Virus record (IMG/VR): IMGVR_UViG_3300044846_004348
Location: 28,643-92,642 of that record
DNA from: a virus
Length of the DNA stretch: 64,000 bases
Strand: one strand, 5' to 3'
Shown piece by piece: positions 1,548 through 49,594 of the stretch. Each line of letters starts with the position of its first letter. The stretch's first letter is position 1. The notes under the pieces are model-generated. The model was not told the origin of the DNA. It made no database searches and saw only the letters and a program-made list of their open reading frames with translations. The position numbers and the translations under genes were made by a program.

Positions 1548-2069
1548 ATGTGGAAACCTGCTAACAATCTTGAGTGGCAAAGGGATGCGCTGTGCGCAAA
1601 ACCAAAAAATCGTAACTACATAAATTGGTTTTTTTCTAACAATACTTCCGAAAAATACGGGGCAAAGAATATATGTTTTTCTTGCCCTGTAAGAAAAGAA
1701 TGTCTTCAGTGGGGTTTAGAGCATCGTCAAATCTGGGGTATTTGGGGCGGTAAAGATGAAGTTGAGATACGAAGGGCTTTATCAGTTTCATATAAAGGTG
1801 AAGAGACTAGAAGAAGACGCTACCCAAACTGCCCATACTGTACTGCAAGACCCTCTAAATTAAGAACCTCAACCGAGCAGTTGCCTAATGGTGGTAGATG
1901 GACAACAGCAAAGGTTGTGACTTGTGACGAGTGTGGTTTTTCTTGGAGAAGTAGAACTAGTGCAAATGCTGTTGAGGCATACAAAATAGACAGACAAGAC
2001 AAAATAACTAAAAGATTAAAAGAAAAAGAAAAGTTATCTAAGAAGAAGAGGGGTCGGAAGAAGAAATAG
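1548..2069 (+). CDS. WhiB-like protein fused to a C-terminal zinc ribbon
   Basis: A 173-residue protein. The N-terminal WhiB part has cysteines at 16, 43, 46 and 52 and GIWGG at 64-68. It continues into a second metal-binding module with CPYC at 95-98 and CDEC at 126-129, the CxxC-(~27)-CxxC spacing of a zinc ribbon. The last 25 residues are almost all Lys and Arg. Ordinary WhiB proteins are 80-120 residues, so the ribbon and basic tail are an extension that could add a second DNA or polymerase contact. The 3' end overlaps the convergent glycosyltransferase gene by 32 bases. Confidence 0.88.
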   Translation: MWKPANNLEWQRDALCAKPKNRNYINWFFSNNTSEKYGAKNICFSCPVRKECLQWGLEHRQIWGIWGGKDEVEIRRALSVSYKGEETRRRRYPNCPYCTARPSKLRTSTEQLPNGGRWTTAKVVTCDECGFSWRSRTSANAVEAYKIDRQDKITKRLKEKEKLSKKKRGRKKK

Positions 2070-3126
2070 TTTTTCCACCTATTTCATAGAAAGTTAAGTT
2101 TTTTTGTAGTCTCTCATCATTTGGATTTATCTCTACAGCTTTCTTCCCGTACTCTAATGCTTCAGAGTACTTACCTAATCTATAGCAAGATATTGCGGCA
2201 AAATCGTATGGAGATTCCCCCCAAGCGTCTGCTTCGCAAAGATACTCTAAAGGTTTTTCTTTAATACTTAAAGTTTCTATGGAGCACTCTAGACAGTTTT
2301 TCCAGTCTTGTTTTGAGTAGTAATATTTTGCTAAATCTAGCCAAGGCTCTCTTCTACCAGGGGCTTGCTCTATTGCTTGTCTAAACCAGTACTCTGCTTT
2401 GTCTGTTTCAATTTTACCTAAGTAACGCATTGAAGCCGCACGTTCTGGTGGCCATTGTGCTCTTGGTAGTTCTAAATGACGTTTAAATTCTTTTGATGCT
2501 TCCTCATATCTACCATAAAAATATAACTCTCTAGCGTAATAAAAAGCATTTCTATCATCAGATAAATCTTCTTGCACTGCTTGAGCAAGTAGTGGAAGAT
2601 ATTGTGATCTTGGTTTTGTATTATCTGCGTGATGGTGTATTTCTAAATCTACCCATCCTTGTAGTTCTGGGCTATCACCGTATCTAACTAGAACTTCGTG
2701 TACTGGGTGTTTCCAGCGATACCCCCATCTGGTGTGGATTTTATCGCCTCCATATTGTAATCCTGGTGTTCCATCTTCATTCCAATTCCATGTGTACTGG
2801 TATCTAGGACGAGTCCAATTATTTTTTAGTGCTTTTTCTAAGCACTCTCTCCAGCCAGGTAGTAATACTTCATCCATATCTAAAGCTATGCAGTAGTCTA
2901 TATCTGTTGGTAGAGATGCAAGACTAGCGTTTCTTGCTACATCGAATCTCCAAGGTTTTACATATATAGGTAAAACATTTATGCCTAAAGACTTTGCGTG
3001 CTGTACAGTTCCATCTGTTGAACCAGTATCTGCAATTAGTAGATAGTCTGCTTCTTTTGCTGACTCGTACCAAGCGTCTACAAACTGTCTCTCATTTAAA
3101 GCTATGGTGTATATCGCTATTTTCAT
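2038..3126 (-). CDS. Family 2 glycosyltransferase with C-terminal TPR-like repeats
   Basis: A 362-residue protein. The N-terminus has the GT-A pattern of family 2 glycosyltransferases: a beta strand (KIAIYTIAL), DTGSTDGT at 33-40 for nucleotide binding and DMDE at 83-86 as the metal-binding DxD-type motif. From about residue 190 to the end, helical pairs rich in Tyr, Leu and Ala resemble tetratricopeptide repeats, an architecture common in bacterial glycan glycosyltransferases. It probably transfers a sugar to a phage or host glycan; donor and acceptor are unknown. It lies downstream of a small membrane protein and the halogenase on the same strand. Confidence 0.88.
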   Translation of the reverse strand: MKIAIYTIALNERQFVDAWYESAKEADYLLIADTGSTDGTVQHAKSLGINVLPIYVKPWRFDVARNASLASLPTDIDYCIALDMDEVLLPGWRECLEKALKNNWTRPRYQYTWNWNEDGTPGLQYGGDKIHTRWGYRWKHPVHEVLVRYGDSPELQGWVDLEIHHHADNTKPRSQYLPLLAQAVQEDLSDDRNAFYYARELYFYGRYEEASKEFKRHLELPRAQWPPERAASMRYLGKIETDKAEYWFRQAIEQAPGRREPWLDLAKYYYSKQDWKNCLECSIETLSIKEKPLEYLCEADAWGESPYDFAAISCYRLGKYSEALEYGKKAVEINPNDERLQKNLTFYEIGGKTISSSDPSSS

Positions 3127-3130
3127 ATAT

Positions 3131-3421
3131 TTACCCTATCAGAAAATGTCTTACTATTGCGGCTATAGCCAAAAAAGACCACAGTATGTTGAACCATATA
3201 AGTGTAGGTAGTGTTTTTACTGTAGAAGACCATATTAGCATTAAACTTGATATTAAAGCAAGTACGTAAAGCCACCATATTTGTATATTAAAAAGTAATC
3301 CAGGTATAATTATGACTGCTTTTACTACAAAAGCAAAAAATTCCACACTGTTTTCTCTATTCCAATATTTTTTATGGGTCATAGTTTTTAAGGCTACAAA
3401 CCACTCTTTTTTTATATTCAA
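3131..3421 (-). CDS. Small membrane protein
   Basis: A 96-residue protein with three hydrophobic stretches (about residues 28-45, 47-65 and 72-92), so probably an integral membrane protein with a basic, cytoplasmic N-terminus. Its start overlaps the halogenase stop by 4 bases, a coupling arrangement that suggests the two are translated together. No family recognised. It could anchor or transport something for the neighbouring enzymes, but nothing in the sequence proves this. Confidence 0.65.
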   Translation of the reverse strand: MNIKKEWFVALKTMTHKKYWNRENSVEFFAFVVKAVIIIPGLLFNIQIWWLYVLALISSLMLIWSSTVKTLPTLIWFNILWSFLAIAAIVRHFLIG

Positions 3422-4968
3422 GACTTTAGATCCTCTATAAAATCTTTATGTGACATACATTTTTCTACAACTTCATCTTGATTTTTTATAAAAACCTCAT
3501 AACTATCTGAAATAAAATCATATAGTTTATTAGATTCGTATGTATCTTTGTATGTTTTTTTATTTATTAAATCTAATCCTTCGCCTACAGAAATCCAACT
3601 CTCTAATGGAAACATTTTTGAAGAGAAATCTGTATAGTCCCAGACTCTATAATCTAAAATATCTATATAATTTTTTAGTTCTTTAGAGTATGTATCTTTA
3701 TTGTTAAATTTTTTCCAGAATTCAGTGTCTTTTCTTTTTGTTAAATAATGTAAATGAATAAAATCTACAATTTCTTCATTTGCTTTTATAAATTTTTTAT
3801 TGAATTCCTCTATAACATCATCATTTATATTTATTATACTGTTAAGATTTGACATAGAATTTGTTATATTTATTATTGAAACCCATATTGAAGTTGCCTC
3901 TAGTGGTTCTATAAAACCAGAAGAAAGTCCTACTGCAATACAATTTTTTACCCATGGTTTTTTATAGTATCCAGCATTAAATTTAAAAGTTTTAGGAGAG
4001 TCTATTTTAAAACCTAAATATTCTTCAATCTCTTTTTTAGCATCTTCTTCAGATACTAAACTAGAATCAAAAACATACCCGCACCCATACCTGTTTTGAA
4101 GTGGTATTTTCCACATCCAACCATATTTCATAGCTATTGACTCGGTGTATGAAGGAATATCTTTATCTATAGGTAGGAAAAAAGGTATGGCAGTGTCTAC
4201 TGGAAGTTTTTCTTTGTGACTTTTCCACTCAGATTTATAAATTTTTTCAATTATTAATCTTTTAAAACCAGAGCAATCAAAAATAAAATCAACTTCTATT
4301 TCTTCTTTTGTATCTAAAACTAGTTTAGAAATATTTCCTTCTTTGTCTTGCTTAATATCTAGTACTATGCCTTCTACTACATTAATGCCTCTTTCAATTC
4401 CTATGCTTTCTAGTGTCTTAGCAAAACTGACTGCATTAAAATGTAAAGCAAAGTAAGAATTCATTACATATTTATGTATTGGATCTTGTATAATTTGATT
4501 ATCGTAATCTGGATGTAAAGTAAATCCTACTTTATCCTTTTCTCCAATTTTTTCAACAAAATTTACCTGACTTAAAGGTTTGTCTAGTTCTTTAGTTACA
4601 ACATGTAGAACATTTGTTTTTGGTAAAATTTCTGGGTTGTCAAAAGAAGATAATCCTACATTTTCATTAGACAAAAAGCCGTGGTAATAGTAAGAATTAT
4701 CGCCATTCCAATTTGTAAATTTAATTCCGTTTTTAATAGTGGCATCTGCATCTTTTATAATTCTTGATGCTGGTATGTTTAGGTAGTCTAAAAAACTAAT
4801 TATGCTAGGGGTAGTTCCCTCTCCAGCTCCCAGCACACCAATATCATCAGATTTAACTAATGTAACATTTGAGTCATAAAATTTTTTCTTAGCGTATAGA
4901 GCGGTAAGCCACCCAGCGGTGCCTCCACCTAAAATGACAATTTCATTAAATGATTTGTTTTTTGACAT
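3418..4968 (-). CDS. Flavin-dependent halogenase (tryptophan halogenase family)
   Basis: A 516-residue protein with all hallmarks of the tryptophan halogenase family. GGGTAGWL at 14-21 is the FAD-binding GxGxxG variant; GAGEGTTPS lies at 48-56; IKFTNW at 82-87 places a lysine (83) where the catalytic lysine of PrnA and RebH sits; WMWKIP at 284-289 matches the family motif WxWxIP exactly; EPLEATSIW at 354-362 carries the conserved active-site glutamate region. The length is normal for the family. Such enzymes use reduced flavin, oxygen and halide to make hypohalous acid that halogenates an aromatic substrate. No flavin reductase gene is visible, so reduced FAD must come from the host. The substrate cannot be told from sequence. 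Confidence 0.93.
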   Translation of the reverse strand: MSKNKSFNEIVILGGGTAGWLTALYAKKKFYDSNVTLVKSDDIGVLGAGEGTTPSIISFLDYLNIPASRIIKDADATIKNGIKFTNWNGDNSYYYHGFLSNENVGLSSFDNPEILPKTNVLHVVTKELDKPLSQVNFVEKIGEKDKVGFTLHPDYDNQIIQDPIHKYVMNSYFALHFNAVSFAKTLESIGIERGINVVEGIVLDIKQDKEGNISKLVLDTKEEIEVDFIFDCSGFKRLIIEKIYKSEWKSHKEKLPVDTAIPFFLPIDKDIPSYTESIAMKYGWMWKIPLQNRYGCGYVFDSSLVSEEDAKKEIEEYLGFKIDSPKTFKFNAGYYKKPWVKNCIAVGLSSGFIEPLEATSIWVSIINITNSMSNLNSIININDDVIEEFNKKFIKANEEIVDFIHLHYLTKRKDTEFWKKFNNKDTYSKELKNYIDILDYRVWDYTDFSSKMFPLESWISVGEGLDLINKKTYKDTYESNKLYDFISDSYEVFIKNQDEVVEKCMSHKDFIEDLKS

Positions 4969-39622: not shown

Positions 39623-40309
39623 TTACTCCAAAGATTTTTTATACGACAAATACACATGTCTAACTGTTGATGCATGCCATTTACTGTCTTTTTTAACTGT
39701 TGGAATATTTTCTTTGTTTAACATTTCTGCAATCCGTCCAAAAGATAAACCTTTTAATCTGTGCTCGTAAATTCTTATTCTCACATCATCTGTAAGTATT
39801 GGTTTAGGACCTAAATCAATACCCCACTTTTTATTGTTATCTCTTCTATCTTGATGGACATCTCTTTGACGAAGTGAAATCATTCCTCGTTCCATCTCTG
39901 CCATTGCAGACATAATGGTTACAACGAAGCGACCTTGATAGGTAGCAGTATCTAAACCTAAGTCGAGCATGGCTAAACGCCAGTTGTATTTATGAGATCT
40001 ATCAACAATGCTTAAAAAGTCTCTAGTTGATCTAGCCAACCTATCCAAACGAGTGACATAGAGAGCATTGGCTTTACCTTCATCTAAATCCTCTAAAGCC
40101 TGTCTTAGAACTGGTCTACCTTGAATGCTTTTACCTGAGCGACCTTCTTCCCTAAGCATTACTACTGTGTAGCCAGCGGCTTCTGCAGCAGCTTTAAGTT
40201 GCTTTTCTTGGGCATCAAGACTTACTCCGTCTTCAACTTGCATTTGAGTTGAGACTCTTGCATAGCAATATGCAACACCTGGTAAAACTGTTTTTAATAC
40301 TTCAGTCAT
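39623..40309 (-). CDS. Serine recombinase of the resolvase/invertase family
   Basis: A 228-residue protein. The catalytic domain has CYARVS with Ser20 as nucleophile and Arg18, and TRLDRLARS at 86-94 supplying further active-site arginines; the E-helix region follows (QGRFVVTIMSAMAEMERG). A DNA-binding helix-turn-helix occupies about 170-215 (LKGLSFGRIAEMLNKENI). The size is that of small resolvases or invertases, not of large serine integrases (over 450 residues). It could invert or resolve DNA, for example in the adhesin locus, or be a mobile-element remnant. Direct repeats lie just upstream. Ribosome-binding site GGAGCG. Confidence 0.9.
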   Translation of the reverse strand: MTEVLKTVLPGVAYCYARVSTQMQVEDGVSLDAQEKQLKAAAEAAGYTVVMLREEGRSGKSIQGRPVLRQALEDLDEGKANALYVTRLDRLARSTRDFLSIVDRSHKYNWRLAMLDLGLDTATYQGRFVVTIMSAMAEMERGMISLRQRDVHQDRRDNNKKWGIDLGPKPILTDDVRIRIYEHRLKGLSFGRIAEMLNKENIPTVKKDSKWHASTVRHVYLSYKKSLE

Positions 40310-40431: not shown

Positions 40432-40446
40432 CTTTTAAAAACGCTA

Positions 40447-40512
40447 TTTTTCGGCCTCTCGCTCCGTTATGAAAGGAAGCGGGAGAGTGGGGAAAAAATG
40501 TGTGTGTTTGGG
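40447..40512 (+). repeat. G-rich intergenic repeat, copy 1
   Basis: The core GGCCTCTCGCTCC lies at 40453-40465, preceded by TTTTTC and followed by a G-rich tract (GGGAGAGTGGGG) and TGTGTGTTTGGG. CTCTCGCTCC can pair imperfectly with GGAAGCGGGAGAG. It lies directly downstream of the stop of the minus-strand gene ending at 40520. One of five related copies between 40.4 and 45.2 kb. Confidence 0.8.
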
Positions 40513-40519
40513 TTTATCT

Positions 40520-40795
40520 TTATTTTCTACATTCTTTACATATGGTGCCCCACTCATTTGCTGAGTCAGCATCAACCATTTGATTTGGTGGTGAAACCAT
40601 TAAATCGTGATAGTTAGTGTCCCAAGTGGATGAATCGTTTTTGTCATCTTCTTCATAATCATCCCAAACGGCTGTGTACATATCTGCATACGGAGAAAAC
40701 TTTCTTGCCAACCAACCAGACGCATCCATAGCTCTATTTGAGATCCAGCGAACAACTGAACCTTTGTCTACTTCTACTTGCTTTACAAAATCCAC
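40520..40795 (-). CDS. Hypothetical protein
   Basis: A 91-residue acidic protein with a GTG start and AAGGAGTG ribosome-binding site. It is rich in Asp and Trp and ends with CKECRK, one CxxC motif. No family recognised. It is bounded on both sides by copies of the G-rich intergenic repeat, so it looks like a single-gene cassette. Confidence 0.6.
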   Translation of the reverse strand: MDFVKQVEVDKGSVVRWISNRAMDASGWLARKFSPYADMYTAVWDDYEEDDKNDSSTWDTNYHDLMVSPPNQMVDADSANEWGTICKECRK

Positions 40796-40821
40796 ACCAA
40801 CACTCCTTCCTTAAAACCTAA

Positions 40822-40902
40822 TTTTTCGGCCTCTCGCTCCAACATAATAATAGGGCAAAAAAGCAAGGAAGGGAAGGAAGGTTGTGTTTTGGTGTGTTTT
40901 GG
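40822..40902 (+). repeat. G-rich intergenic repeat, copy 2
   Basis: Core GGCCTCTCGCTCC at 40828-40840, preceded by ATTTTTC and followed by a purine-rich tract (GGAAGGGAAGGAAGG) and GTTGTGTTTTGG. The copy ends directly at the stop codon of the minus-strand gene that ends at 40903. Hairpin pairing is weak in this copy. Confidence 0.8.
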
Positions 40903-41289
40903 CTATAGTTTCTTTGCTTTGATCTGTCTTCCATCTAGAACAATAGGACCTTTACTGTCATGCCAAATCCAAAAACCGATTGGCATAGATGGATCAGAAT
41001 TAAACGTGTGTGACCAATGTAGATGATAGTTTTTTCCATCCCAGCCGCCGATGTTCTTATCATCGTGACCAGTTTCATCTAGTTTGTCAGTACCTGGGTA
41101 GCGACCAAATCTTCCTCTAAGAACTTTTCCACCAACGCCAAATTCTATTCTTAGAACAGTTGTCCATTGCCATACACCAGCGCTGTCTACCTTGTACGAG
41201 ATACCTTTAGGGTACTCAACCCAAGTCCAAACTTTAGGTGGAACTGATTGCTTAGACTTACCACTTTCTACTTTCCATAAATTTGACAC
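40903..41289 (-). CDS. Hypothetical protein
   Basis: A 128-residue protein with GTG start and GGAGTAAT ribosome-binding site. It is rich in Trp, Gly and Lys (for example HLHWSHTFN, FGRYPGTDK) and looks like a beta-rich globular domain. No cysteine motif, signal peptide or membrane segment. Flanked by repeat copy 2 on its 3' side and an inverted repeat on its 5' side. Not recognised. Confidence 0.6.
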   Translation of the reverse strand: MSNLWKVESGKSKQSVPPKVWTWVEYPKGISYKVDSAGVWQWTTVLRIEFGVGGKVLRGRFGRYPGTDKLDETGHDDKNIGGWDGKNYHLHWSHTFNSDPSMPIGFWIWHDSKGPIVLDGRQIKAKKL

Positions 41290-41318
41290 TGTTATTACTC
41301 CTTAAAACCCTGCACTAG

Positions 41319-41342
41319 TTGTGTAAAACAATTATTACACAA
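41319..41342. repeat. Perfect 8-bp inverted repeat
   Basis: TTGTGTAA (41319-41326) and TTACACAA (41335-41342) are separated by 8 bases, upstream of the minus-strand gene starting at 41289. No T-run follows on the minus strand, so an operator is a better guess than a terminator. Confidence 0.45.
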
Positions 41343-41357
41343 ACAAAGCAACCTCAT

Positions 41358-41507
41358 TTACTTCAATGAATTTTGGTATCCTCCACAGATAAGGCACATG
41401 CCGTAATCTGAAAACTTATGCCCGCTTGGAAGGCAGCCGTTTGGTAGCGCGTCTTCTCCAGCACTAAACCACTCTTTAATCTTTTTTACTATATCTTTAC
41501 TTTTCAT
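41358..41507 (-). CDS. Small cysteine-motif protein
   Basis: A 49-residue protein from the ATG at 41507. It has CLPSGHKFSDYGMCLICGG, a C-H-C-C arrangement suited to one zinc ion. I prefer this start to one 147 bases upstream because the longer reading overlaps most of the neighbouring 126-residue gene, while this one overlaps it by only 11 bases. No family recognised. Confidence 0.6.
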   Translation of the reverse strand: MKSKDIVKKIKEWFSAGEDALPNGCLPSGHKFSDYGMCLICGGYQNSLK

Positions 41508-41877
41508 AGTTACGTAAAATCTCGTTATTTTCTTCAACTGTGTGGTCAAGGTATTCTTTGTAAGTACCAAACTTTTTGTCGTTTTCTTCTCTACCCTCAC
41601 GGATAATCTCTGCAATATCTTCTGGAGCCAAGTTAGGTCTATGCATTTCGCCAAAACTACTAGTTCTCTTGTTGTACCTATCCATCATGGATTTAATGGC
41701 TTTTTGGTCGTACTTCTCTGATTCTTCTAAAAAGAAATTAACCACTTCTTCAGTGTTTAAATAATCTATATCTATTCTCTGTCCAAAGCGTTTAACAAAA
41801 CTCTTGTGTAAACTCTTTGCCTTCGGGGTTTCTAACATGATTCTCCTTGCCTCTGCAGGTTTATACAGGTTTCGCAA
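41497..41877 (-). CDS. Hypothetical helical protein
   Basis: A 126-residue, highly charged protein predicted to be almost all helix (Glu-, Lys- and Arg-rich). No cysteine or membrane segment. It overlaps the upstream gene by 46 bases in another frame, and the downstream gene by 11. No family recognised. The end of the gene upstream is Cys-rich and this one is not, so the two are separate proteins. Confidence 0.55.
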   Translation of the reverse strand: MRNLYKPAEARRIMLETPKAKSLHKSFVKRFGQRIDIDYLNTEEVVNFFLEESEKYDQKAIKSMMDRYNKRTSSFGEMHRPNLAPEDIAEIIREGREENDKKFGTYKEYLDHTVEENNEILRNYEK

Positions 41878-42329
41878 AGACTACCGTGAATAAGAACAGA
41901 ACCGATATTAGCAAAATACTCATGAAAGATACTTATCCCCCTCTTCTTACATGAATCACACTCGTCTGAGTTGTATTCGGCAGAGGCTTTTTCTAAAGCT
42001 TGTACACAATCAGAGCAACCAAGAAAATCAGACTGCCCTACAAAAACACACCAAACTGTAGGATTATCAAAATCTACATGTGGGCAAAACTCTAACTTAT
42101 CGAACTCTTGTCTATCAATCATCCACCTTAACTTTTTAAGCACAGGTGTACTCATATAAGTATTTACATCAAAACTTTTAACTCTTACTTCTGCTGGCTG
42201 ATGAGGAATATTTACAGATGCTTTATGGAAAATATCTCTTGCTTGTTCCGTGGCTGCTTCAAGTTGCTCTTCCATTCGAGACATGCGAAGACGCTCTATG
42301 GCTTCATCTTCTTCATTATCCATGAGCAA
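41832..42329 (-). CDS. Cysteine-rich hypothetical protein
   Basis: A 165-residue protein. The N-terminal half is acidic and helical. The C-terminal half has several cysteine pairs (CSDC, CDSCKKRG, CETCIN) that look like two zinc-binding units. It overlaps the next gene by 46 bases. Its start lies about 30 bases from repeat copy 3. No family recognised. Confidence 0.6.
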   Translation of the reverse strand: MLMDNEEDEAIERLRMSRMEEQLEAATEQARDIFHKASVNIPHQPAEVRVKSFDVNTYMSTPVLKKLRWMIDRQEFDKLEFCPHVDFDNPTVWCVFVGQSDFLGCSDCVQALEKASAEYNSDECDSCKKRGISIFHEYFANIGSVLIHGSLCETCINLQRQGESC

Positions 42330-42356
42330 CCTTTTTCTATATAATAAAAAACTTTA

Positions 42357-42430
42357 CTTTTTTGGCCTCTGGCTCCGATTAAAGAGTAGGGGGAATACGG
42401 ACGGGGGAGGGTTGTGTGTTTTGGGGGTAG
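42357..42430 (+). repeat. G-rich intergenic repeat, copy 3
   Basis: Core GGCCTCTGGCTCC at 42364-42376, preceded by TTTTTT and followed by GGGGG, GGGGG, GGG and GGGGG runs and TTGTGTGTTTTGG. These four G-runs make the plus strand able to form a G-quadruplex. Unlike the other copies, its G-rich half overlaps the last codons of the gene ending at 42379. Confidence 0.8.
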
Positions 42431-42651
42431 TTTTCTGTGTCGTCTTTCCAAAGTTCATCGTAAATGTTTTCTGGGAGTCTGTCCCCTCTACTCTCATGAA
42501 CTTTTAAATGATCCACCATCTCTTGAGTTGAGTTAGCGTTAAAAGATACAGAGTCCATCTCTCCTAAACCACAAGCCATACACACAAGTCGATTTGTTCC
42601 AGCATGCATAAAAACGTAAGCATCAGACTCAATGAATCTTGAGTAAGCCAT
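42379..42651 (-). CDS. Hypothetical protein with a zinc-finger-like motif
   Basis: A 90-residue protein. A CMACG motif near residue 24 and HLKVHES near 48-54 give the C-x2-C...H-x3-H spacing of a classical zinc-finger-like unit. The last 15 codons (SPVRIPPTL at the end) run through the G-rich intergenic repeat, so the C-terminus may be recent. No family recognised. Confidence 0.6.
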   Translation of the reverse strand: MAYSRFIESDAYVFMHAGTNRLVCMACGLGEMDSVSFNANSTQEMVDHLKVHESRGDRLPENIYDELWKDDTENYPQNTQPSPVRIPPTL

Positions 42652-42741
42652 TTGTCTCCCTAGTTTAAAGTGTTACCTACCGTGAGAATATTTATTTTAA
42701 ATTTATTTATCCACGGCAGGTAACTATTACTATCATACAAC

Positions 42742-43227
42742 TTACTCTGGAAATGTTAAAAAACTATCGTCTAATGGCGAGTTGGGGTTCCAAGACTTAA
42801 ACTGCCTTAAAGAAGATTTAACGGTTTTTGGGCCGCCTCCGTACTTAACCTGTGCAACTACTGGGTAATCAGGGTTAATCGCCCAGCAGGTGGCTCCTTG
42901 CCACTTCTTAGGACTGTTTTTACCTAGGACCCAGGTGTTAGTGCCAGTAGTGTTTAGCTTTCCAGATGGTAGAACTCTGGCTATGCGAACTTTAACCCAC
43001 TTTGGCTTACTTTTGCCAAAAGTTAAATGAACTTGAGTACAGTAAAGACTTCTAGTACCAAATGGTTTCATTTGGCTTTTTCCATCAAACTTTAATGTTG
43101 TCCACTTATTTCGAGGAATTTCTTGAGCAGTTGTAGATTTCCAAACATTAGTGTTTTTTGCAACCACTGGGTTTGTAGAAGAAAATAAGAATAATAATAT
43201 AAACGCAATAAAAACCTTTTTTAACAT
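42742..43227 (-). CDS. Secreted hypothetical protein
   Basis: A 161-residue protein with a clear signal peptide (MLKKVFIAFILLFLFSS, cleavage near residue 23 after VVAK or before it). The mature part is beta-rich with two cysteines (about residues 63 and 113) that could form a disulfide. Trp, Lys and Gly-rich strands suggest a jelly-roll-like extracellular domain. No family recognised. As an exported early-type cargo it may alter the host surface. Confidence 0.65.
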   Translation of the reverse strand: MLKKVFIAFILLFLFSSTNPVVAKNTNVWKSTTAQEIPRNKWTTLKFDGKSQMKPFGTRSLYCTQVHLTFGKSKPKWVKVRIARVLPSGKLNTTGTNTWVLGKNSPKKWQGATCWAINPDYPVVAQVKYGGGPKTVKSSLRQFKSWNPNSPLDDSFLTFPE

Positions 43228-43431
43228 AAAACAAGTGTAAGTGTTAACATTTTTAGAACAATTTAATAATTTGATTACTTTTATTAATAATTTGTGGATT
43301 AAATAAAGTAATTCCTTGAATATAAACAGAATTAGTTGTGGAACTTTGATTTGTGGAAAACTTAAAAAACTAACTAAAATCTAAATAAAATTGTAGATTT
43401 TGACATTAGATAAGTTATAATTAAAGCAACT

Positions 43432-43459
43432 CCCATAAGGAGGTTTTTTTATTTATGGG
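43432..43459 (+). promoter_or_regulatory. Hairpin over the start codon of the NlpC/P60 gene
   Basis: CCCATAA (43432-43438) pairs with TTATGGG (43453-43459). The right arm includes the ATG start codon (43455-43457), while the Shine-Dalgarno GGAGG (43439-43443) sits in the loop. Such a hairpin could hold the start codon closed until ribosomes or a trans-acting factor open it. Confidence 0.45.
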
Positions 43460-43904
43460 TCCTTTATTAAGTACGTTTATATCCGCTACGTTTATTGCAA
43501 CTAGTATTCTACCTACTGAAAAACCAGTTCCTATTATTAATAGCGTTCAAATTCTAGCTACTGCAGACAAATACATTGGAGTTCCATATTGTAGGGGCGG
43601 TAGTAGAGGTAAATGTTTTGATTGCTCTGGTTTTACTTCCTTTGTTTATGGAAAGTATGGAGTTGATTTATCAAGGAGTGCGAGTCAACAATATAGAAAT
43701 GCAGTAATAATTTCTAAAGAAACAGCCGTTCCTGGTGACCTAGTTTTCTTTAAAAATAAAAGCGGTTATGTTTATCATGTCGGGATCTATATAGGAAACG
43801 ACAAAATTATCCACGCTCCAAGATATGGAAAAAGGGTTCGCGTAGAAACTATATGGGGTCAGAGAGTTGAGTTTGCAAAAGTTGCTTATGTGACTGCAAC
43901 CTAA
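43455..43904 (+). CDS. NlpC/P60 family cysteine peptidase
   Basis: A 149-residue protein with a short hydrophobic N-terminus and the NlpC/P60 pattern: DCSGF with catalytic Cys57, GDLVFFKNKSGYVYHVGIY with His108, and His120 as third residue (KIIHAPRYG). These enzymes cut D-gamma-glutamyl-diaminopimelate bonds in peptidoglycan. The hydrophobic N-terminus (residues 1-20) may be a signal peptide or anchor, which would let it act outside the cell. It stands alone on the plus strand with its own start-codon hairpin; a second lytic enzyme besides the M23 endolysin, or a virion-associated one. Confidence 0.88.
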   Translation: MGPLLSTFISATFIATSILPTEKPVPIINSVQILATADKYIGVPYCRGGSRGKCFDCSGFTSFVYGKYGVDLSRSASQQYRNAVIISKETAVPGDLVFFKNKSGYVYHVGIYIGNDKIIHAPRYGKRVRVETIWGQRVEFAKVAYVTAT

Positions 43905-43911
43905 AACTAAA

Positions 43912-43980
43912 TTTTTCGGCCTCTCGCTCCGTTATAAAAAGCGGAGGACGATTGGGGTAGGGTTGTGTGTTTTTTGGTTT
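43912..43980 (+). repeat. G-rich intergenic repeat, copy 4
   Basis: Core GGCCTCTCGCTCC at 43918-43930, preceded by ATTTTTC, followed by CTCCG-(10)-CGGAG as a perfect 5-bp hairpin and then GGGGTAGGG and GTTGTGTGTTTTTTGG. It lies at a convergent junction, between the stop of the NlpC/P60 gene and the stop of the minus-strand gene ending at 43982. Confidence 0.8.
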
Positions 43981-43981
43981 T

Positions 43982-44671
43982 TTAGTAGCTAGTGCTGTAG
44001 TCCTCAGACCACAAAGTAGTTTTCCTGCTCTCCCAGTTATCTAAGTCTTTAGGGTAGTCAAAATCCTCAGTCCAATCATTTATCTCCACAAAACCACCAT
44101 TCTTAAATAACTCTTGCCTAGAGCGAGCATTGCCTAGAGTCATATCTTTAAATAGATGCCAACCCCCAGCACTTAGTATTTCAGAGACCGAAACATAAAG
44201 CATAAAAATCTTGTGACTAAAAGTAACTGACATGCTGCTACTAAAAGAAATAGCAAAAATCTCTTTATGAGGCTTTCCAGTAATAATGGAACCCTTACGG
44301 CGAAGAAAAAACTTCCACTCATCTTTATCAGAAACTATTGTTCTAACTGCATCGTCAGTAAAATAGACATCTCCAAAAACTAAAATGTTTTTAGAGTTTT
44401 TCTTGTCTAACCATAAATCATGCGAAGAGATAAACTTAGACATTTCTTTAGGGCTGTCATCAATCTCAGGGGTATAAAGATTTGCCCCGTCAAACTTATA
44501 TCGGTCATCTGGACCTACAACCCAAACATCAGAAGTGTGTTTAAGAAACTGTTTAACGGTTCTTGCTAAAAGAACTTCTCCCTCTATCTCAACTAAATGT
44601 TTAGGCACGCCTCTATAGTTGCCCCACCTTGAACCGCTACCGCCAGCAAGAATTATTACTCTAAGTTCCAT
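43982..44671 (-). CDS. Sugar nucleotidyltransferase-like protein
   Basis: A 229-residue protein with the nucleotidyltransferase start: VIILAGGSGSRWG (6-18), then VPKHLVEI carrying the conserved Pro-Lys. FGDVYF near 119-124 gives an acidic metal-binding residue. The pattern fits the Rossmann-like NTP-transferase superfamily (GlmU, MobA, IspD and sugar-1-phosphate enzymes), which attach an NMP to a sugar phosphate. It may make an activated sugar for the phage glycosyltransferase. The exact substrate cannot be told. Confidence 0.82.
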   Translation of the reverse strand: MELRVIILAGGSGSRWGNYRGVPKHLVEIEGEVLLARTVKQFLKHTSDVWVVGPDDRYKFDGANLYTPEIDDSPKEMSKFISSHDLWLDKKNSKNILVFGDVYFTDDAVRTIVSDKDEWKFFLRRKGSIITGKPHKEIFAISFSSSMSVTFSHKIFMLYVSVSEILSAGGWHLFKDMTLGNARSRQELFKNGGFVEINDWTEDFDYPKDLDNWESRKTTLWSEDYSTSY

Positions 44672-44712
44672 TAATTAAGTTTATCAGGGGTTATAGTGTA
44701 AGAGTGCCTGAT

Positions 44713-44741
44713 TTGACTTGCAGGCTTATTACCGTTATAAT
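44713..44741 (+). promoter_or_regulatory. Sigma-70-type promoter candidate
   Basis: TTGACT (44713-44718), a 17-base spacer and a perfect TATAAT (44736-44741). It lies 30 bases upstream of the ATG at 44772, so it is well placed to transcribe that gene. Confidence 0.75.
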
Positions 44742-44771
44742 AAACTATAGCTGGAGATATTTAGGACACGT

Positions 44772-45056
44772 ATGGCAAAGAAAAAAATAGAAATAAAGAT
44801 TCCTGAGCACTGGGTCGTAGAAGAATCAATTCAGGTCAACAATCAAACAGTTGTGCCAGGAACTGAGATATCTGTAAAAGGTGAAAGAGGAAGATTTAAA
44901 TTCCTTAAAAAAGTAACCACCCCAAACACCTCTTGGGTAGATTGCATTGGTGGAAGAAAAGGTTACGAGGTATACAGATCATTTGAGACATCTAAAATAA
45001 AAACCGTTCATCGCAAAAAAACAACACGACCAACTAGAAACAAAAACGCTATATAA
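44772..45056 (+). CDS. Small basic hypothetical protein
   Basis: A 94-residue, very basic protein (Lys- and Arg-rich at both ends) with a middle part suggesting a small beta-barrel (EISVKGERGRFKFLKKV, then TSWVDCIGGR). It may be a nucleic-acid-binding protein. It is a solitary plus-strand gene with its own consensus promoter, and is followed by repeat copy 5. No family recognised. Confidence 0.65.
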   Translation: MAKKKIEIKIPEHWVVEESIQVNNQTVVPGTEISVKGERGRFKFLKKVTTPNTSWVDCIGGRKGYEVYRSFETSKIKTVHRKKTTRPTRNKNAI

Positions 45057-45069
45057 TAAAAACTTAAAA

Positions 45070-45150
45070 CTTCTGGCCTCTGGCTCCAATAGAGATTAGG
45101 AGGAGGAGGCGGGAAAAAGGGGGAGGTTTGTGTTGGGGTGTGTTTTGTTT
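45070..45150 (+). repeat. G-rich intergenic repeat, copy 5
   Basis: Core GGCCTCTGGCTCC at 45075-45087, preceded by TTC, followed by GGAGGAGGAGGC (which can pair with GCCTC and CTCC of the core across a 3x3 internal loop) and GGGAAAAAGGGGG and TTTGTGTTGGGGTGTGTTTTG. It sits at a convergent junction between a plus-strand gene and the minus-strand gene ending at 45165. Confidence 0.8.
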
Positions 45151-45164
45151 TGTTTGATTCTAAC

Positions 45165-46397
45165 TTAAACTATATCTAGCCAAGAAATAGAACCAACAAC
45201 ATTTTGAGTTCCACCAAGCGAGCGCACAGCTAAAGTTAGTGTGTCACTTGTTGGAGTCGTTGCATTAGTTCTACCTAACTGAATGTCCCAGCGGAAAATA
45301 TCTCCCAAAGATACTGACCCAATTGATTGATTGGAAGAACTAAAAAATCCTTGCTCAACTATTGTTCCACCCGTTAAAACAGTCTGAGTAATATTATATT
45401 CAACATTACCTGTAGATTCTGTGTGAGGCACCCATGTACCACCAGTTAAGGTTGCATTTTTTATAAGAGCGTATTCATAATCTCCAGCAGATCTTCCAAG
45501 TATAGATATAGCATTAGGAACTATTACTGAGTCCGTTCTAGCAGAAGCTAAGCGAATAGAAACTATTGGGTAAAAGTCTCCAGCAACACCAACTTGTGTA
45601 GATCTAGATGCAGTCCAATGTTCTGTTTTTCTGGTATATCCTCCATTAGAAATAACAGTGGCGCATATCTGCTTCATTGTAGAAGAGCTTGAAGTTGCTC
45701 CAGTGTTCTCAACTTCATAACGTAAAGGTAGAGAGGCTGTTGTTATATAGACAGATGTAGTTTTGTTTGCATGATGAAAAGCATGAACTGGAATAAAATA
45801 ACCATCTATAGCAAAGCCGCAGCGTACTGAACCTACGCCAAGCCATTCATACTCTGTCCAAAAAATTTGAGCTTTAGATAGATCTAAAACTATGTCTGAA
45901 GGTCCATCTCCGTTAAGTTGGTCAATATTCCAATCACTTTGTGCAACTCTTGTATTGACTACTTCGCCACTGATATAACTACGCTTAACTAAATAAACGC
46001 TTGTACCATCCTGCTCTAAATAAATTCCGTTTTGTCTAGAAAAATAACCAACTCTTTGTCTCAAGTTTGCTTTAGGTGGAGCCATAACAAAAGTCTGCAT
46101 AACCTGCAAAGACTTGCCTGGTTGATATGGAAAAGTTTTAAAGGACTCAAGAGTTACCTTGTCACCTGAAGCACTGCCTATTGCTAAAGACAAAGAACTT
46201 TCATTTGTAAGATGAGAAACTGTTGCTGTGCCAGAAGTTTCTTTACTAAAATCTCCAGATTCTTTATATCTATGTGAAGAGTCAAATACAGTATAAGGTT
46301 CAGATGTTTTAATTCTTCCAAAAAGATCCGTACGAAAGCTAGAAAAACCTTGCTGAGGTACATTAGGAATCTTGCCTTCGTTATTATTATTTGTCAT
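45165..46397 (-). CDS. Paralogue of the C-terminal domain of the giant tail protein
   Basis: A 410-residue protein with the same conserved strands as the 3' part of the giant protein at 9348-17939: QSDWNID, LDLSKAQIFW, GVGSVRCGF and LPLRYEV against QSQWSID, LDLSKIQMIY, GAGKIRYGF and LPARYEV. No repeats or collagen stem. It is therefore a stand-alone copy of a receptor- or virion-binding domain, placed 27 kb away in the accessory region. The duplicate may be an alternative tip or a decoration. The N-terminal part is unrelated to the giant protein. Confidence 0.75.
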   Translation of the reverse strand: MTNNNNEGKIPNVPQQGFSSFRTDLFGRIKTSEPYTVFDSSHRYKESGDFSKETSGTATVSHLTNESSLSLAIGSASGDKVTLESFKTFPYQPGKSLQVMQTFVMAPPKANLRQRVGYFSRQNGIYLEQDGTSVYLVKRSYISGEVVNTRVAQSDWNIDQLNGDGPSDIVLDLSKAQIFWTEYEWLGVGSVRCGFAIDGYFIPVHAFHHANKTTSVYITTASLPLRYEVENTGATSSSSTMKQICATVISNGGYTRKTEHWTASRSTQVGVAGDFYPIVSIRLASARTDSVIVPNAISILGRSAGDYEYALIKNATLTGGTWVPHTESTGNVEYNITQTVLTGGTIVEQGFFSSSNQSIGSVSLGDIFRWDIQLGRTNATTPTSDTLTLAVRSLGGTQNVVGSISWLDIV

Positions 46398-48679: not shown

Positions 48680-48752
48680 GCCTCGTTGGTCTAGCGGTTA
48701 GGACGTCTCCCTCTCACGGAGAAGATCGTCGGTTCGAATCCGATACGAGGTA
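48680..48752 (+). tRNA. tRNA-Glu (CTC)
   Basis: A complete cloverleaf of 73 bases: acceptor GCCTCGT with ACGAGGT (one G-T pair), D arm GGTCTAGCGGTTAGGAC, anticodon stem TCTCC/GGAGA with loop CTCTCAC and anticodon CTC, T arm with GGTTCGAATCC, discriminator A. No CCA is encoded. Confidence 0.93.
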
Positions 48753-48755
48753 CAC

Positions 48756-48827
48756 GCCTCCTTAGCTCAGTGGTAGAGCACCCGCCTTGTAAGCGGGCGG
48801 TCATCCGTTCAAATCGGATAGGGGGCT
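48756..48827 (+). tRNA. tRNA-Thr (TGT)
   Basis: A complete cloverleaf: acceptor GCCTCCT with AGGGGGC, anticodon stem CCCGC/GCGGG with loop CTTGTAA and anticodon TGT, T arm with CCGTTCAAATCGG. It reads ACA codons, which suits the threonine-rich collagen-like proteins with AT-rich codon use (inference). Three bases separate it from tRNA-Glu. Confidence 0.93.
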
Positions 48828-48835
48828 CTAGTAAG

Positions 48836-49594
48836 TTAATTTGCTTGGTAGGGCGGCACACAAATGTTATGCCACTCTCTTGCTTGATTAACATTGTCAA
48901 AAAACTCTACATCTTCTATATAAACTGACTCTGCCCAGTCTTTCCATTTAGGTGCGCAATTAACATAATTAAATTTAAATAAACCAAAAGGTGTTCCATA
49001 AGCGTGAGCCGCTATTGCAACATGTAGAGAGCCAGTTAAAACAAATCTTGCTCCAGATATTAATTTAGTGAGGTCAACAATATCTTCCTCGCTAGCTACA
49101 GCAGTAGTGTAGAAAGAATCTGCTCCATGATCTAAGGGGTCGTAGTCCTCTATGTATGGATCTAGTATGTGAGGAATAAAAAGTATTTGGGCATTTAAGT
49201 CTCCCTTTGGAATAAATTTAGGTAAGTTGTATCCAGGGTCAGGACTAACTGGAACTTCAATCCCATAACTTGCTAAAACGTCTTGAGTCTTTGGACCTCT
49301 AACAGATACAAATTTTGATTGTTCTAGGAGGAAAGAATCTAATTCTTCTCCACGCCATCCGCAATTAACAAAAATTGGAGTAAAGCCTGACTCTAATATT
49401 TCAATCATAACTTCATTACAAATAGTGCTACCTAGTACCGAATAGCAATTTTTGTCGTCTTGATAGAAACCCTCTAACTCTTCTTTAGATAGTAAGACAT
49501 CTATTAGAGCATCCCCATAGTTTCTAATAGAATCATGCTTATTTAGAGGGTTGTCTGTAATAGGTTCTTTATCTGGTAGCCACTCATAAATCAT
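48836..49594 (-). CDS. Polysaccharide pyruvyl transferase family protein
   Basis: A 252-residue protein. NYGDALIDVLLSKE near residue 26-39, VSVRGPKTQDVLASYGI near 97-113 and LTGSLHVAIAAHAYGTPFG near 185-203 match the WcaK/AmsJ-like polysaccharide pyruvyl transferase family, which adds ketal-linked pyruvate to sugars using phosphoenolpyruvate. Some family members have other functions. With the nucleotidyltransferase, glycosyltransferase and propeller enzyme it indicates glycan modification. Confidence 0.85.
   Translation of the reverse strand: MIYEWLPDKEPITDNPLNKHDSIRNYGDALIDVLLSKEELEGFYQDDKNCYSVLGSTICNEVMIEILESGFTPIFVNCGWRGEELDSFLLEQSKFVSVRGPKTQDVLASYGIEVPVSPDPGYNLPKFIPKGDLNAQILFIPHILDPYIEDYDPLDHGADSFYTTAVASEEDIVDLTKLISGARFVLTGSLHVAIAAHAYGTPFGLFKFNYVNCAPKWKDWAESVYIEDVEFFDNVNQAREWHNICVPPYQAN

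Follow-up and report, generated by a model that had tools for sequence, protein, structure and literature searches.

Short repeats at gene ends of a probable actinobacterial phage as possible boundaries of exchangeable gene cassettes

Why should one short sequence recur behind several genes of a viral genome, always in the same orientation and within one region? The question is raised by the window (the whole 64,000-nucleotide stretch of viral DNA analysed here), in which the exact core of the repeat lies at 40453, 40828, 42364, 43918 and 45075 (n = 5). The remaining matches to the core in the window have three mismatches each, and no shuffle attained 27 matches. The complete IMG/VR viral record (92,642 bp) holds the same five cores, with zero on the opposite strand and zero with the reversed pattern, which bears out the preliminary description of five copies in a single orientation, each 3' of a minus-strand ORF and found nowhere else. 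That description gave the repeat unit as 66-81 bases, a length that does not stand, as the part conserved in sequence is a motif of 24-31 nt and the C-rich part beside it is conserved in composition only. The C-rich, G-poor character noted for the minus strand holds, since the 60 nt before the motif contain 20-29 C and 1-3 G across the five copies, which are arranged as follows.

Copy 1, 40438..40519, minus strand: 24-mer motif at 40445-40468, T-run at 40438-40444, and C-rich tract reaching to the stop of the ORF at 40520-40795.
Copy 2, 40813..40902, minus strand: motif at 40820-40843, T-run at 40813-40819, and C-rich tract reaching to the stop of the ORF at 40903-41289.
Copy 3, 42349..42435, minus strand: motif at 42356-42379, T-run, and C-rich tract.
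Copy 4, 43903..43981, minus strand: motif at 43910-43933 and C-rich tract, flanked by the convergent NlpC/P60 gene (plus strand) and NTP-transferase gene (minus strand).
Copy 5, 45060..45164, minus strand: motif at 45067-45090 and C-rich tract, flanked by the convergent DUF7246 gene (plus strand) and phrog_1645 virion gene (minus strand).

At copy 3 the C-rich tract is translated through by the end of ORF 42379-42651, the stop codon of which overlaps the motif. All five copies recur at equal spacing in the near-identical contig L025/L030. The host of the window phage is likely actinobacterial, because its large terminase shares 81% identity with that of Actinomycetia phage DSL-LC01, which was assembled from a Dishui Lake metagenome (PMC10611076). 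Rfam matches in the window are tRNAs only, and adjacent tRNA genes (Glu, Thr) at 48680-48828 adjoin the minus-strand ORF 48836-49594. The genes in and around the repeat region are listed below.

39623..40309, minus strand: small serine recombinase, 228 aa (PF00239, E=1.9e-35; PF07508).
40520..40795, minus strand: putative cassette gene, 91 aa, function unassigned, between copies 2 and 1.
40903..41289, minus strand: putative cassette gene, 128 aa, family F03, before copy 2.
42379..42651, minus strand: putative cassette gene, 90 aa, family F09, zinc-finger-like, before copy 3.
43455..43904, plus strand: NlpC/P60 hydrolase gene, convergent with copy 4 (PF00877, E=6.8e-25).
43982..44671, minus strand: putative cassette gene, MobA-like NTP transferase, family F01, before copy 4 (PF12804, E=3.6e-10).
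45165..46397, minus strand: virion structural protein phrog_1645, the first gene upstream of the array (E=5.9e-120).

The recombinase and the terminase side of this region are conserved, and genes of the array are rarely common to different phages. In about eleven phage loci a member of family F09 ends in the motif at the 3' side, and across these loci the next gene downstream is of about nine different kinds. In L032 a relative of F03 is placed after a site rather than before it, the same holds for F01 in L110, and no relative of ORF 40520-40795 was found in the 41 terminase loci compared. Elsewhere in the window, collagen-repeat tail-fibre genes have as neighbours a protein resembling beta-1,4-glycosyltransferases (2038-3126, minus strand) and a tryptophan halogenase (3418-4968, minus strand; PF04820, E 1.9e-106).

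The search for the core in related genomes suggested by the preliminary description recovered diverged versions in relatives of the terminase. The family comprises at least 113 non-redundant sites, collected from terminase-relative loci and loci encoding the recombinase, in related, probably actinobacterial, phage contigs that are all metagenome assemblies, where repeats can produce false joins, and whose genes are simple ORF calls. Scanned with a transcript-sense weight matrix, the terminase-relative loci yield 87-89 sites versus 2 in reversed sequence, and a degenerate pattern gives about 84 matches across 34 records (0 with the reversed pattern). The family consensus, in transcript sense, is AACGGAACGRGAGCSCGRAAAAAY followed by about four loose bases and, loosely, TTTT. 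Over positions 7-19 the motif is more alike within a phage (identity 0.84) than between phages (0.70; label shuffles reached at most 0.74), which suggests homogenisation of the copies or their co-evolution with a trans-acting factor. As for a bacterial chromosomal source, an exact-pattern scan of genome contigs gave four matches in unrelated organisms, which were taken as chance. In one 133-kb contig (G027; L122 and L123), two oppositely oriented sets of motifs flank the terminase and recombinase, and recombination between the sets could invert about 10 kb. A search of the literature covered here for a conserved gene-end repeat in such phages found none, and the element family is apparently undescribed so far in freshwater actinobacterial viruses.

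What do the sites have in common? The motif lies 3' of a gene on the same strand and is followed by one of several kinds of sequence, including start codons, promoter-like stretches and the ends of convergent genes. At 30 of the 113 sites the next start codon overlaps the end of the motif (start-coupled sites). Other sites are separated from the next gene by a gap or adjoin the stop codon of a convergent gene, as do copies 4 and 5 of the window and sites in L032, L063 and L110. Since the downstream context differs in this way, the common feature is the end of the preceding gene and not the start of the following one. A promoter element was considered and rejected, as the -10-like matches total 37, which is not above shuffles (mean 27.8, maximum 39); outside the start-coupled sites, these matches are concentrated at positions 38, 42 and 45 of the motif.

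Comparison of near-identical phages places the boundaries of cassettes on the repeats, with junctions inside the motif, an outcome in favour of the recombination point that the preliminary description had offered as one possibility and had proposed to judge in this manner. In alignment, L112 carries 3.83 kb between two copies and L113 instead carries a single hybrid copy, which agrees with the left site at positions 3 and 8 and with the right site at position 24 (one genome for each form). A 441-bp segment encoding an HNH-type protein lies between two copies in L254, L065, L259 and L260, and is missing from L199, L256 and L257, which come from other metagenomes and have one copy (several contigs for each form; L065 family, 97-100% identity). 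Two further events are 705 bp inserted in L255 at a copy of L254 and 749 bp in L285 at a copy of L295. In both of these pairs the paired sites share only about 6-10 contiguous bases, because the left part of the motif is missing at the right junction, and so short a stretch would speak against general homologous recombination. All four junction events are compatible with a crossover at motif positions ~12-19; a crossover at 16-22, derived from L065, was ruled out when L254 showed the diagnostic base 15 to be strain-specific. Amongst 27 distinct clean indels near the arrays, four overlap the motif core versus 0.22 expected for random positions (p ~6.5e-5), an excess that would be smaller against gene ends alone; the junctions of the other 23 lack the core, about nine of these indels lying within 60 nt of a copy. 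Within the L065 family, the members of which are 97-100% identical, arrays differ as motif-bounded blocks (e.g., K444 takes the place of block D605 over a stretch that starts about 66 nt past one motif and runs up to the next motif). A left edge some 66 nt beyond the motif, as seen in some of the replacements, counts against a crossover inside it in those cases. Taken as comparisons between assembled sequences, these cases make an exchange-point role of the motif well supported.

The same cases have to be weighed against the main rival, a regulatory reading, which we judge less likely. The motif would be a stoperator-like transcription-halting operator or an SAS-like control element that selection maintains at gene ends; exchange would be a by-product of general phage recombination at short repeated identity, and the serine recombinase would be unrelated to it. 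Asymmetry and orientation with transcription are indeed features of stoperators (PMC9283540), yet the sites between convergent genes have no start to control. Overlap with the start codon at 30 of the 113 sites recalls SAS, which nearly overlap starts (PMC3203893), but start-coupled sites within dense operons would be an odd location for a transcription block. Copies homogenised within genomes are what sites tracking a trans-acting factor would show, and many other indels of the region lie away from the motif core. On the other side, the identity at two of the junctions is too short for ordinary homologous recombination.

If the motif is instead a site of cassette exchange, the gene immediately after copy 1 in the window is a candidate for the enzyme. 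It encodes a protein with a resolvase catalytic domain and a helix-turn-helix 'Recombinase' segment, the catalytic residues of which (R18, S20, R87, R90 and R93) are invariant in 25 relatives, and its AlphaFold model (mean pLDDT 81) matches the catalytic domains of resolvases and serine integrases. All motif-bearing terminase loci with at least 6 kb upstream (41 of 41, redundant loci included) encode a serine recombinase of 220-250 aa. Neither recombinase nor motif occurs in 14 loci, and nine loci, mostly of one clade and including the truncated L049, have the recombinase with no recognised motif. Orientation is shared with the recombinase gene by 398 of 405 motifs, which lie at a median of 2.9 kb upstream of it; because nearly all motifs are thus direct repeats, segments would be gained or lost rather than inverted. 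The association between recombinase and motif is weakened by shared ancestry, since the neighbouring core genes g36654 and g37204 co-occur with the motif nearly as well and the terminase tree requires only about four changes of motif label. The best dyad centre of the motif (25/26) does not coincide with the crossover window (~12-19), which differs from a textbook resolvase site and would not be predicted for a simple resolvase-like one. A tyrosine integrase (PF00589) was found in 0 of 36 records by a search that was positive in 14 of 14 control genomes. We take the recombinase as the most likely catalyst of cassette exchange. A search for a second motif in recombinase-bearing phages with no array turned up nothing beyond a single diverged site in each of two such phages. 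This site, GGAGAGCCCGGAAAAATC, lies at upstream position 7208 in L247 and 4399 in L104, and could be a primary insertion site.

The C-rich tract raises the further question of whether the element also ends transcription. At 58 of 113 sites the motif is preceded by 50 nt rich in C and poor in G, versus 2 of 793 control gene ends in the same loci, so that the Rho-loading-like composition pointed out in the preliminary description proves strongly enriched, as a matter of composition only. Because of this enrichment, the element may plausibly be terminator and recombination point in one, and the tract probably stops transcription between cassettes in a Rho-type manner. The other structures once proposed for the repeat fared less well: a simple scan found a GC hairpin with T-run, as in an intrinsic terminator, at 2 of 113 sites, and the canonical four-run G3 pattern of a G-quadruplex is found in none of the five window copies, four of which have the weak G2 pattern alone. 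Four runs of G3 or longer on one strand occur at 15 of 113 family sites. Visual inspection of copy 4 suggested an RNA hairpin in which the C-rich tract pairs with the purine-rich motif (CCUCCGCU/AGCGAGAGG); this idea was set aside because pyrimidine and purine tracts pair trivially, and it is also disfavoured by the start-coupled sites, which mostly lack the tract. In L086, L087, L094, L097 and L101, an apparent intrinsic terminator (CTGCCC...GGGGGCAGTTTGTTTTT) stands directly upstream of the terL start.

Termination might be the element's main function, in which case the C-rich tract would act as a Rho-dependent terminator with the conserved sequence as a pause or roadblock, and the junctions would merely mirror exchange at the borders of transcription units. 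We consider this improbable. The excess of tracts over control gene ends speaks for it, as do the two window sites between convergent genes and the few sites (L258, L285 and L112) at which an apparent hairpin with T-run stands in for the tract. However, only 6 of the 30 start-coupled sites have a tract and the motif is conserved there nonetheless, and it would be senseless to end a transcript exactly where a gene starts. It is very improbable that the segments move by HNH homing-endonuclease activity with the motif as target and co-conversion tract, a reading suggested by the HNH-type protein of the cleanest mobile segment (441 bp, L065/L254), as other motif-bounded blocks carry other genes and the 3'-end motif of many unrelated genes would be left unexplained.

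The explanation that we favour, with moderate confidence, is that the repeats are boundary elements of a recombinase-driven gene-cassette array, with transcription insulation, in a probable actinobacterial phage. A cassette would consist of one or more genes and an element at the 3' end of the last gene, and the element of an optional C-rich untranslated tract, probably a Rho-type end of transcription, followed by the 24-31-nt recombination motif. Recombination inside the motif would allow cassettes to be inserted, deleted or replaced, presumably through circular intermediates, with the small serine recombinase next to the array as the most likely catalyst. We propose more tentatively that freshwater actinophages possess a gene-capture system in which a small serine recombinase, acting on a short asymmetric 3'-end site, runs an integron-like reserved slot for cassettes. 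The acquisition of accessory genes by phages is usually explained as rare illegitimate recombination sifted by selection. If our reading is true, an array with a dedicated recombinase would make gene acquisition in these phages programmed and testable, and the motif would serve as a ready marker for accessory genes; if it is confirmed, the defined site of a small serine recombinase would also be in hand. Should the element prove to have a regulatory function alone, conserved repeats at gene ends would still appear to be undescribed for this phage group.

Amongst known systems, integron cassettes with attC, including those of phages, are similar in having one 3'-end site per cassette in one orientation, single genes that are gained and lost, and a recombinase gene beside the array (PMC9892861). 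Unlike integrons, in which the enzyme is a tyrosine integrase, the candidate here is a serine recombinase, and the motif is short, of double-strand type and without the R''/R' boxes of attC (RYYYAAC ... GTTRRRY), which match 1 of 113 sites versus a shuffled mean of 0.97, and none of the five window copies. The SAS/ESAS of cluster K mycobacteriophages are likewise short, asymmetric, repeated gene-border elements of actinophages, and the GGnACGGGAGCCC-like core of the motif resembles SAS GGGATAGGAGCCC (PMC3203893). SAS lie 3-7 nt before starts (PMC3203893), whereas the motif follows gene ends. Membership of the SAS family was rejected both by sequence (GGGATAGGAGCCC with at most 2 mismatches; the window copies have 6, and only 7 of 113 family sites have 2) and by place, as the window copies are 24-135 nt from the next start or have no downstream gene on the same strand. 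To our knowledge, SAS are not known as exchange points. Stoperators of cluster A mycobacteriophages, a 13-mer bound by the immunity repressor, are also asymmetric, oriented with transcription and situated in short intergenic spaces (PMC9283540). They differ in that their sequence is unrelated and that the copies described here are clustered in one region beside a recombinase. The recombinase itself shares its catalytic domain, conserved residues and predicted fold with gamma-delta/Tn3 resolvase, Hin/Gin, TP901-1 and the CcrB catalytic domain. Known serine recombinases of these kinds resolve, invert or integrate fixed segments, whereas the role proposed here would be to exchange numerous cassettes between directly repeated sites. 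Phage morons and boundary sequences also place extra genes with their own expression signals between phage genes and involve exchange at gene borders; unlike morons, the present arrays have their borders marked across divergent phages by one conserved element, which stays with the upstream gene.
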